Shown here piece by piece: positions 40,129 to 44,611 of a stretch of 64,000 nt of DNA (position 1 is its first letter; each line of letters starts with the position of its first letter). A program made the position numbers and the translations under genes. The notes beneath the pieces are model-generated. The model ran no database searches and was not told where the DNA came from. It saw only the letters and a list, made by a program, of their open reading frames with translations. This DNA is from Planctomycetota bacterium (GTDB taxonomy: Bacteria; Planctomycetota; Planctomycetia; Planctomycetales; Planctomycetaceae): NCBI GenBank assembly GCA_027624335.1, contig JAQBWV010000005.1, forward strand, positions 1 to 64,000. The letters are read 5' to 3'.

Positions 40129-41691
40129 TCAGACTCCGTCCGTGTCGGCAGTCGATTGGTCATTCGCTGCCGGGCCTTCGATGGCGGCTCTGTTTAAGGC
40201 TTTAAGATACGCCCGGGCGCTGGCGGCGACTATGTCTGTGCTCACACCTTTGCCGTGGAAGACTTTTCCGTTGACGTTGATCTCGACCATCACTTCGCCC
40301 TGAGCATCTTTGCCGCTGGACACGCTGCGGACCTGATAGTCGGTCAGCACTGCCTCAATACCGACAACACGTTCCAGAGCTCGGAAGATGGCATCGACCG
40401 GGCCGTCTCCCGTCGCCGCATCCTGGAAGACTTCATCAGAACCCTCACGCCGCATTTCGAGCGTCGCTGTCGGAAGCACATCCGATCCCGCAACCGTGTG
40501 GAAGCGATCGAGTGACCATTGTTCCTGAGTCTCGCCAATGTGGCTCTCGATCAGGGCAATGATGTCCGAATCGAAGACATCTTTCTTCTTGTCAGCCAGC
40601 GTGATGAATTCGTCAAACACTTCCTGGATAAGAGAATCTTCGAGCTCATAACCAAGATGCTTCACGCGATCACGAAACGCGTGCCGCCCGCTGTGTTTGC
40701 CGAGGACGAGGTTCGTGCCGATGTACCCGACGTCTTCCGGTCGCATGATTTCGTACGTGCTGCGATTTTGCAGCATCCCGTGCTGATGGATGCCGGCCTC
40801 ATGGGCGAACGCGTTCTGCCCGACGATCGCCTTGTTCCGCTGCACGAGCATTCCGGTGATTCTCGAAACCAGCCGGCTGGTCGAGAACAACTTCTTCGTG
40901 TTGATATTCGTTGCGACCTTGTAGTGATCCGGGCGAGTCTTGATCGCCATGACGATCTCCTCCAGAGCGGCGTTCCCCGCGCGTTCGCCAAGACCGTTGA
41001 TCGTGCATTCGACCTGCCGTGCTCCCGCTTCGATCGCCGAGAGACTGTTCGCCACAGCCAACCCCAGATCATTGTGGCAATGCGTGCTGATGACGGCCCG
41101 CTCGATGTTTGGCACGTTTTCTTTGAGGTGCCGGATGATGTTGAAGTAGTGCGACGGCGTTGAGTAACCGACCGTGTCCGGGATGTTGACAGTCGTCGCT
41201 CCGGCGGCGATGGCCTTCTCGGTGACTTCGCAGAGGAAGTCGAGTTCCGTTCGCGCAGCGTCTTCAGGCGAGAATTCGACGTCGTCGGTAAAGCCTTTGG
41301 CACGTTCGACCATCTCGACCGCGCGCTGCACGATCTCGTCTTTACCCATCTTGAGCTTGTGCTCGCGGTGGATGGCGCTGGTGGCAAGAAACACGTGCAG
41401 GCGTTTTTTCTCGGCGTCTTTGAGCGCTTCGCCAGCCCGATCAATGTCGTCGACCCGGCAACGGGCGAGACCACAGATCGTCGTCTGGCTGCCAAACGTG
41501 CGAGCGATTTGCTGCACTGCTTTGAAGTCGTCGGGCGAGGCAATTGGAAAGCCCGCCTCGATGACGTCGACACCCAGTTCGACCAGCGCCTTCGCGATTT
41601 CCATCTTCTCTTTGGTCGTCATGCTGCAGCCGGGTGACTGCTCACCATCGCGGAGGGTCGTGTCAAAAATCGTGATCACATCGCCGGACAT
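40129..41691 (-). CDS. leuA: 2-isopropylmalate synthase
   Basis: [58 protein letters not shown]; start 41691 (MSGDVI). Confidence 0.95.
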
Positions 41692-41947
41692 CGGATCGCT
41701 CTCCAGGAGCCTTGAGGATCGGAACGTTTCAGTAAAACAACAGAGTCTCGTAAGTCTGACGCAAAGTCGCGAAGACGCTGAGTTTCGCAATGAGAAAAGA
41801 AAGAGATGAGAGCAAACCGAAAATTCCCGGTCGCCGGTATCTCACTCAATTCTTTGCGATGCCTTTGCGTCTTCGCGCCTTTGCGTCAGGTTAAATCTTG
41901 AAAAACAGCTCAAACATGTCGTTCGATCGGACAAACTGTCAGGCGAC

Positions 41948-41983
41948 AAAAAAACCCTGAGGCGGGAAGCCTCAGGGTTGTTT
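41948..41983 (-). terminator. Attenuator terminator upstream of leuA
   Basis: Minus: AACCCTGAGGC-TTCCC-GCCTCAGGGTTTTTTTG; 11-bp stem followed by a T-run. Confidence 0.92.
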
Positions 41984-42015
41984 TCGTCTGATTCGACCAA
42001 AACGGTCAAGACAAC

Positions 42016-42081
42016 CTAAGCCATTCCCGCAGGGAGGGGATGCAGTAGTAGCAGGCTCAGGTTGAAAACGTTGAAATTCAT
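42016..42081 (-). CDS. Leucine-rich leader peptide MNFNVFNLSLLLLHPLPAGMA
   Basis: Six Leu codons (CTG, CTG, CTA, CTA, CTG, CTC), 21 aa; upstream of leuA and its attenuator. Confidence 0.85.
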   Translation of the reverse strand: MNFNVFNLSLLLLHPLPAGMA

Positions 42082-42448
42082 TGTTGCTTCTGTTGGTTGG
42101 TTGCTTCTGTTGGTTGCCGCTGTTGTCGTTTGTCGCATCGCCGATGAAAACCAGCGAGGAACGACTCTACCCCTGACGATCGAGTCCGTCAAGCGGCGAA
42201 ATTAAGCTGAGGTCGTCATTTGCAGCTGACACAAGAGCATCACATCGGGTTCGACATGACTTCCCGGAATTCTATGCAGCACAGCCTTCGGTGTGGGACG
42301 CCCATTTTGTGGATCAGCGGATGGCAGCACACTGCAAGGGCCGTTCCTCTCTGCTTCATTCTCCCTGCGACGATTGATGTTCGCCCAGGCGATGGCGAGC
42401 TCAGCGATCATCACGACCGGTTGGCGGGGGTGTGAGTCTCGCCCCGTT

Positions 42449-44611
42449 CTATTTCTCAAGAGATTCAACGATGGCGGATATTCGACCCAAATCCAGGTTC
42501 GTTCCAGAGGTCGGAAACGCTGACGGGACCAGCCACCATTCCTCGGTGAACGATCCGATCTGCCCTGGTTCTAATCGCTCACGAGGCCCGATGGGTTCCA
42601 GTTCGACGCGTGGACCCTCCGGATACCAGACGGAAATCGTCAGTCCGGCAGCTTCGTTGTAAACGCGATCCGGAAACGTCTTGAACTTCTTGATGAACAG
42701 CAGATCGTTCTTCATCGCGTAGCCCATCCAGCCGGCATACGAATCGAAACCCAGCTTCGGTCGACGGGGAGCGGCAAGGATCTCGAGAAATCCATCACGC
42801 TCGCGGATGTTCGGGTCGACTGGTCGGGCGTTGATCAAAGCTCCGTCTTCGTACATGACGTACTTGTTGGGAAACCGGCTCTGCCCGGCGAGCGGAATCA
42901 AGCAGATGCCTTCCCCCAGAGCGAACGTACGACTCCAGTGGCACCACTCTTTCACCTCGCTCGAAACATTCATGATGGTTTGAGTGCAGCTCAACCGGCT
43001 GGTTTTCGCGTCGAGTTCGAAGTCTCGAACAAGCTGGACGCCGGTGCCTTCGTCGTGCTGACTGGTCAGCCGCGCTGACCGAGGTCCGGTGATCTCGCCG
43101 GTCCACTCGCCCGACCACAATGTCGATCGACGAGGAATGACCAGTTCGGGACCAATGTCAAACCGTCCCGCCGAAGACGGTCCCGGTTCGCCCGGCTTCC
43201 AATCCTTTTCCTGCTCGTCAAAGTACAGCGCGTTCGCGCCGCTCAACGAGTACTCCAGCACGCGACCGCCCGCCTGAGGGCACAGCACCACTTTCGTTGC
43301 GGCATTCGTCAGCTCAATGGCCCGGTCATAGCCGAAGTAGCAAACGACTTTCGCCGAATCCGACTCGGCTCCTCGAATCGACGTGATGGCCGCCTCCTGA
43401 AAGGCATCACGAAGGTCTGAGCCGTCCGCGTTGCCGAAGTTCGTCCGTTGAATCATCAGTACAAAAACGACTCCGCGCTGCGGGTCCATCCAGACTTGCG
43501 TTCCGAACGCTCCGCCATGTCCACAGGTTCCAGGATTCAGCAGCCGCGAAACGCCTTGAGGGTGCCGGACAATGCACCAGCCAAGTCCCCAGCCATTGCC
43601 CGGCGTAAAACCAGTGACCACGTCTCCCGATTGAACGCTAGTCATCAGGTTGATCGACTTCGCAGATACGATGCTGCGACCATCCACTTCGCCACCGCTC
43701 AGAATCATCTGGTAGAACCGGGCGATGTCAGCGGCGGTCGAAAACAGCCCGCCTGAAGGATTCGGCGTTCGACGGATTTTGGGATCCAGAACGACGAACG
43801 CATTGCTCGACGGAACCACGCCGTCCCCTGCTTCCTTCGGAGAGTATGTCGTCGCCAGCCGAGCGACCTGAGCCTCTGACAGGACAAACGTCGTGTCTGT
43901 CATGCCGAGTGGTTTGAAAAGTCGGCTGTGTAAAAAGTCAGCATACGACTCCCCACTGAGGACCTCGATGATTCGAGCGGCGACATTCAAACCGCTGCTG
44001 TACCGCCACTGCGAACCCGGTTCGAAAGCGAGCGGTGCTCGACCGATTCCGTCGACGATTTCTTCGAGCGACTTCGTAAGAAACTCTTCGCCCGGCGGTC
44101 GCGAAAGTCCGGCTGTGTGAGTCAGTGCGTCACGAATCGTCACTGCTCGAACGGCCGTTCCATCCTTCAACATCTGCCCTTTGAACGCCGGAATAAACTT
44201 CTCGATCGGATCATCAATCGACAGTTTCCCTTCATCATGCAGGATCATCATCGCTGTAGCGGTTATCGGTTTCGTCATCGAGGCAATTCGAAAGATCGAA
44301 TTCGGCTGCATGTCGCGGCCGCTCCTGATATCGGCCTGCCCGACAGCACTCAAATGAACGATTCGACTCTTCGTCGCCACCGCTGTGACCGCTCCTGAGA
44401 TTTGGTGCCTCGCAATGAATTCTCTCATTCGAGCATCAATCTGCGTGAGTCGATCCTGATCGAATGCCACCTCCCCAGCATTCACGACCGCCAGACTGGC
44501 TGAAGTCAGGACGGTTAATGTGGCTATCAACCTGATCACGTGCGAAGCAGAGAATCGACGAATCTCGCTGATCGATGAAAATGTGGTCATGCGGTTTCTC
44601 CTGGATGTCAT
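42449..44611 (-). CDS. Serine hydrolase (class C beta-lactamase-like) with additional C-terminal beta-rich domain
   Basis: FRIASMTKPITATAMMIL (SxxK), YSSGLNVAARIIE (YxN), CGHGGAFGT (HxG). Confidence 0.88.
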   Translation of the reverse strand: MTSRRNRMTTFSSISEIRRFSASHVIRLIATLTVLTSASLAVVNAGEVAFDQDRLTQIDARMREFIARHQISGAVTAVATKSRIVHLSAVGQADIRSGRDMQPNSIFRIASMTKPITATAMMILHDEGKLSIDDPIEKFIPAFKGQMLKDGTAVRAVTIRDALTHTAGLSRPPGEEFLTKSLEEIVDGIGRAPLAFEPGSQWRYSSGLNVAARIIEVLSGESYADFLHSRLFKPLGMTDTTFVLSEAQVARLATTYSPKEAGDGVVPSSNAFVVLDPKIRRTPNPSGGLFSTAADIARFYQMILSGGEVDGRSIVSAKSINLMTSVQSGDVVTGFTPGNGWGLGWCIVRHPQGVSRLLNPGTCGHGGAFGTQVWMDPQRGVVFVLMIQRTNFGNADGSDLRDAFQEAAITSIRGAESDSAKVVCYFGYDRAIELTNAATKVVLCPQAGGRVLEYSLSGANALYFDEQEKDWKPGEPGPSSAGRFDIGPELVIPRRSTLWSGEWTGEITGPRSARLTSQHDEGTGVQLVRDFELDAKTSRLSCTQTIMNVSSEVKEWCHWSRTFALGEGICLIPLAGQSRFPNKYVMYEDGALINARPVDPNIRERDGFLEILAAPRRPKLGFDSYAGWMGYAMKNDLLFIKKFKTFPDRVYNEAAGLTISVWYPEGPRVELEPIGPRERLEPGQIGSFTEEWWLVPSAFPTSGTNLDLGRISAIVESLEK

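Follow-up and report, generated by a model that had tools for sequence, protein, structure and literature searches.

A probable ribosome-mediated attenuator of leuA and related leader peptides in Planctomycetota

Organization of the leuA leader region

The stretch analysed here, 64,000 nt of a Planctomycetaceae contig (JAQBWV010000005.1) and hereafter called the window, carries leuA on its minus strand, preceded by a short leader gene and a set of mutually exclusive hairpins. The features, in the order in which they would be transcribed, are as follows.

42164–42192, minus strand: sigma-70-like leader promoter (−35 TTGACG at 42192–42187, 17-nt spacer, −10 TAGAGT at 42169–42164)
42016–42081, minus strand: leader peptide ORF MNFNVFNLSLLLLHPLPAGMA (ATG at 42081, TAG at 42018–42016)
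42054–42064, minus strand: region 1, CAACCTGAGCC, overlapping the first Leu codons and pairing with region 2 (anti-antiterminator)
42012–42022, minus strand: region 2, GGCTTAGGTTG, partner of either region 1 or region 3
41970–41980, minus strand: region 3, CAACCCTGAGG, partner of either region 2 (antiterminator) or region 4 (terminator)
41948–41979, minus strand: intrinsic terminator (regions 3 and 4) with an 11-bp stem at 41979–41953, the 5-nt loop TTCCC and T7 at 41954–41948
40129–41691, minus strand: leuA, 2-isopropylmalate synthase, the putatively regulated gene (NF002086/TIGR00973 above the NCBIfam cut-off)

The original prediction, made from the sequence of the window alone, had described a 66-nt Leu-rich leader ORF, here at 42081–42016, and both its position and its sequence proved correct. 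Six of the 21 codons are for leucine (CTG, CTG, CTA, CTA, CTG and CTC, hence two CTA). The promoter-like motif, with a score of 9/12, lies 83–111 nt 5' of the leader ATG, and the leader start in the window has no obvious Shine–Dalgarno sequence. A second in-frame ATG, at 42138, would lengthen the leader to 40 amino acids; the sequences of congeners support 42081 as the likelier start. Just 5' of the leader ATG (42082–42115), the window contains a short tandem duplication of AACCAACAGAAGC, which is not found in the congeners.

The pairing scheme of the prediction also held. Regions 1 and 2 were said to pair with one G-U, and the 10 bp given are right, with the full helix extending to 11 bp; the alternative pairing of regions 2 and 3 is present, with one bulged C and one U-G; and region 3 forms the 5' arm of the terminator, whose T-run ends at 41948. 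Region 2 encloses the leader stop codon, in the window as in many relatives. When folded as a single strand, the element has z = −5.8, with none of 200 shuffled sequences being as stable.

Between the terminator and the leuA start codon (41758–41887), there is also a REP-like inverted repeat, GACGCAAAGGCGCGAAGACGCAAAG, at 41863–41887 on the minus strand, with a two-mismatch copy at 41758–41782 on the plus strand. Since similar sequences occur in the leuA 5' region of locus L003 and near other leuA loci, the repeat appears to be interspersed.

Conservation of the element in the family and the class

The gene leuA was found in all 170 genomes of the same order, which in this genome set consists of one family, and the upstream regions of 132 of these genes were examined. 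The automatic call required a Leu-rich ORF no longer than 45 codons and a terminator 10–70 nt after it. Such an element was called before 121 of the 132 leuA genes of the family and before 49 of 53 from other families of the class, compared with 0/262 in dinucleotide shuffles of the same-family upstream regions. The element is therefore not a product of chance, because it precedes nearly all leuA genes and almost never arises in shuffled sequence. Of the 11 same-family regions without a call, most are truncated, displaced by an insertion or equipped with weaker terminators; in L048 the element has been displaced by an insertion, and in L088, L094 and L100 it looks lost or degenerate. The prediction had named the loss of Leu codons or of alternative stems in relatives as evidence that would speak against it; instead, both are kept in the family and, in more diverged form, in the wider class.

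The upstream serine-hydrolase-like ORF (42449–44611, minus strand) is co-directional, and the hairpin lies about 470 nt past its stop codon, which would suit a simple end terminator of that gene beside a coincidental small ORF. However, the element follows leuA rather than the upstream gene across the 53 loci of other families, and a promoter of the form TTGAC-N16..19-TAnnnT stands between the upstream gene and the leader in 109 of 125 relatives, against 1.3 expected from shuffles. Together with the Leu specificity of the leader ORF and the co-evolution of region 2 with region 3 (see below), these data make an upstream-gene terminator extremely unlikely.

The octamer GCGAACCT occurs within 330 nt upstream of 20 of 127 leaders, against 0.65 expected, often with TGTC 10–15 nt further on; in L003, L004, L010, L016, L030 and others it lies upstream of the leader promoter. 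It is possibly a regulator site or a repeat.

Control through the Leu codons could also act mainly on leuA translation or by Rho-dependent termination, leaving the intrinsic hairpin a secondary role. Such control was proposed for some actinobacterial leaders, and in Streptomyces leuA the leucine-codon mutations did not behave as in classical attenuation, with a LEU element that has no terminator (Seliverstov et al. 2005, PMC1262725). In the planctomycetes, however, a strong intrinsic terminator with its T-run is kept in 124/132 upstream regions of the family and 49/53 of other families, while its distance to leuA varies from about 20 to more than 300 nt and no conserved pairing with the leuA start is seen, which makes this reading very unlikely as well.

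A covariance model of the leuA leader was built and used on the window's own genome, the class and the phylum. In its own genome there was a single strong match, the window element (E = 2e-25), followed only by its own antisense strand (4e-5). Matches at E ≤ 0.01 were obtained in 227 of 298 genomes of the class, the weak ones including plain terminators, and for this reason raw match counts are not to be taken as counts of attenuators. Sixty strong matches from other families were retrieved; 53 of them lie immediately 5' of a leuA orthologue, and the rest are other attenuator-type leaders. The named carriers include Rhodopirellula sallentina, R. rubra, an uncultured Schlesneria and a Gemmataceae metagenome-assembled genome (L377). 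Twenty matches of E ~ 1e-7 were fetched from other classes of the phylum; four are leuA leaders and two are aromatic leaders before DAHP synthase, and as attenuators the matches of this strength were mostly rejected, being ordinary terminators.

The same search also yielded leuA loci of Omnitrophota, gammaproteobacteria, clostridia and other groups, most of which do not have the element. At three Verrucomicrobia leuA loci (L391, L404 and L414), candidate Leu-rich ORFs were seen together with terminators, a hint that the element may not be confined to Planctomycetota. In a public assembly deposited under the name Candidatus Kuenenia stuttgartiensis (L365), leuA is 73% identical to that of the window and has a leader of the Planctomycetaceae type; this assembly is probably mislabelled or mis-binned.

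Competing helices and control codons

The prediction had proposed covariation analysis of related leuA leaders as a check. We aligned 75 leaders and scanned all column pairs without a prior structure; trivial poly-T matches aside, the top helices were 3:4, 2:3 and 1:2, and all three competing helices co-vary. The two-sided compensated cells numbered 77 for helix 3:4 (21.7 in column shuffles), 61 for helix 1:2 (40 in shuffles) and 32 for helix 2:3 (18 in shuffles), the shuffle control being uncorrected for relatedness among the leaders. The covariation of helix 1:2 is the weakest of the three, with 66% of cells paired.

Because the column shuffle ignores relatedness, we added a cross-species swap test that does not use column-by-column pairs. 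The native region 3 pairs with region 2 better than that of other species in 69 of 75 leaders (p = 2e-11), and the native 1:2 pairing is better in 47 of 75 (p = 0.0012); neither control pairing, 1:3 or 2:4, is significant in these 75 leaders. In 49 other-family leaders outside the alignment, the 2:3 signal is again significant (p = 1e-4) and the 1:2 signal is weak (p = 0.02), with the spacer control not significant.

The effect of a translating ribosome was modelled by folding the window transcript truncated after region 3, the ribosome being taken to cover 15 nt beyond the A-site codon. For the free RNA, the calculated probability of helix 1:2 is 0.94. With the ribosome on codons 5–15, the probability of helix 2:3 is mostly about 0.6, falling to 0.31 at codon 11, and with the ribosome at codon 17 or beyond, or at the stop codon, both helices have a probability of 0, so that regions 3 and 4 are free to pair. 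With this footprint, the control codons are placed such that a ribosome stalled on them would hide region 1 and leave region 2 free, and the folding order predicted for the successive ribosome positions is that of textbook attenuation. Since the minimum-energy structure at equilibrium is in every case the terminator, switching must rely on co-transcriptional kinetics.

The choice of Leu codons was compared between leaders and leuA at 32 loci. CTA makes up 61 of 229 leader Leu codons (27%), against 2 of 1069 in leuA (0.2%, p = 1e-46), and TTG is depleted in the leaders (6.6% vs 21.2% in leuA). The leu attenuator of S. typhimurium has three CUA control codons, whose replacement by CUG lowered its sensitivity (Carter et al. 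1986, as described in PMC1183508), and theory predicts UUG and UUA to be poor control codons (PMC1183508). Judged by their codon usage, the planctomycete leaders obey the same rule as the Salmonella attenuator, and their CUA bias repeats, in a distant phylum, a preference for control codons that theory foresaw and that was tested in Salmonella. The preference for CTA may alternatively have a structural reason, namely the avoidance of pairing between regions 1 and 2.

On this evidence, we consider, with a probability of about 0.92, that the window element controls leuA by ribosome-mediated transcription attenuation and would sense charged tRNA-Leu; the amino acid enriched in the leader matches the pathway of leuA. 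The anatomy of the locus, its conservation and that of the promoter, the covariation of three helices and the codon bias support this reading, and the conservation, covariation and folding of truncated transcripts, which gives the expected switch, agree with the mechanism originally predicted. Translation of the leader, stalling, the response to leucine and premature termination we infer as follows. RNA polymerase would start some 80 nt ahead of the leader ORF, with a ribosome trailing it through the ORF. When leucine is plentiful, the ribosome would reach the stop codon within region 2 and cover this region, leaving region 3 to pair with region 4, and transcription would end near 41948, some 257 nt short of leuA. 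When leucine is scarce, the ribosome would come to rest over region 1, stalled on Leu codons and on CTA in particular; regions 2 and 3 would then pair as soon as region 3 is made, blocking the terminator and allowing leuA to be transcribed. If the leader is not translated, helix 1:2 would form, followed by the terminator.

Sister leaders, known systems and significance

The same architecture was found before two other genes. Ile-rich leaders (MIHQPTNFGVRIIIIAGQRRS, MTQVRQITDRPTAIRGRIIIGNPRRS and MTRRVIIIPIPHARRS) precede the citramalate synthase gene cimA (TIGR00977 above the cut-off), as at loci L211, L212 and L213 (at about 300–360 in gene orientation), and Phe/Tyr/Trp-rich leaders (MAYNFTAYYWYYFTRPGRGVGGGS and MATAFTYFWFTYFSPGSGAGGSL) precede DAHP synthase (NF006421/TIGR01361), with the set comprising L206, L214, L215 and L230–L255 and, in other classes, L356 and L360. 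A leader with a terminator is present at 14 of 28 cimA loci (L260–L287) and 22 of 26 DAHP synthase loci, and at none or almost none of the shuffles. No leader was found before ilvB (0/24 loci) or trpE (0/25 loci), and these two genes were rejected as further targets.

In the cimA leaders, regions 2 and 3 co-evolve (swap test, p = 0.006). In the DAHP synthase leaders, the first window chosen for region 2 gave no 2:3 signal; with region 2 set further inside the ORF, the native pairing is better in 20 of 22 leaders, at p = 1e-4, a value that is optimistic because the second window was picked after seeing a sequence. In the window's own genome, no aromatic leader or terminator was found before DAHP synthase (L247), and since a congener (L245) carries one, the leader appears to have been lost or displaced; cimA was not found in this incomplete assembly.

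A conserved RNA structure 5' of a biosynthetic gene would also be compatible with a riboswitch or T-box, that is, a metabolite- or protein-binding RNA whose hairpins overlap a small ORF by chance. The Rfam 15 scan of the window, in which only a tRNA reaches the gathering threshold, gave no T-box or riboswitch match, and the T-box covariance model did not match at the locus. The ORF frame, the Leu run and the CTA bias are all conserved, and before genes of other pathways the architecture recurs with codons for Ile or for Phe/Tyr/Trp, for which an RNA aptamer has no need; a binding RNA is thus hardly credible here.

The leuA attenuator resembles leuL of Salmonella and E. coli in its Leu-rich leader with CUA codons, its competing 1:2, 2:3 and 3:4 helices and its intrinsic terminator before leuA. 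It differs in its phylum, in the position of the leader stop codon, which lies in region 2 in many planctomycete members, and in sequence family: no Rfam leader family, the enterobacterial leu leader included, matches at the locus above the gathering threshold, the best weak match being ar14 (28.7 bits, with 58.8 needed). The two are probably of independent origin or very old divergence. The Phe, Trp and Ilv leaders of Enterobacteria (pheL/trpL and ilv) carry aromatic and branched-chain codons. The planctomycete sister leaders do so as well, but their targets are DAHP synthase and cimA rather than pheA, trpE or ilv.

With the actinobacterial LEU element, the planctomycete leader shares a run of Leu codons 5' of leuA. 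The LEU element is a pseudoknot between Leu codons and the leuA Shine–Dalgarno sequence, with no obvious terminator (Seliverstov et al. 2005, PMC1262725), whereas the planctomycete leader has a terminator and an antiterminator and makes no contact with the leuA start; at the window locus a terminator is present and the distance to leuA is not conserved, in place of the pseudoknot without a terminator. The histidine leader before hisS/hisZ in Firmicutes is likewise a leader-peptide attenuator outside Proteobacteria and Actinobacteria (PMC2965389), for another amino acid and another gene. In 2010 the authors of that study knew of no leader-peptide system beyond Proteobacteria, Actinobacteria and this hisS case, and planctomycetes do not appear in their text (Naville and Gautheret, PMC2965389). 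A 2016 survey reported short leader genes in Planctomycetes generally, naming no leucine or leuA case.

We found no precedent for an amino-acid attenuator of planctomycetes in the open-access literature. This and the absence of an Rfam match agree with the original remark that the feature is not routinely annotated in planctomycetes, and, judged on the open-access literature, priority for the planctomycete leuA attenuator is likely. What looks new is not the mechanism, which is textbook, but the phylum, the RNA family and the set of genes under control. We find it fairly likely that Planctomycetota possess a phylum-wide, previously undescribed set of attenuators on committing enzymes (leuA/Leu, cimA/Ile and DAHP synthase/Phe/Tyr/Trp), which would provide a regulatory logic for amino-acid synthesis in a phylum without one in the literature searched. 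The leaders define one or more RNA families that Rfam does not contain and supply dozens of unannotated leader peptides.

The cell plan of Gemmataceae was once argued to separate transcription and translation. Conservation of the element across the class, including the Gemmataceae genome L377, bears on this question because attenuation needs a ribosome close behind RNA polymerase. If the proposed mechanism is true, the leaders would be in vivo genetic evidence for tight transcription–translation coupling in Planctomycetota, Gemmataceae included, and this old question about planctomycetes would become addressable by a reporter experiment.
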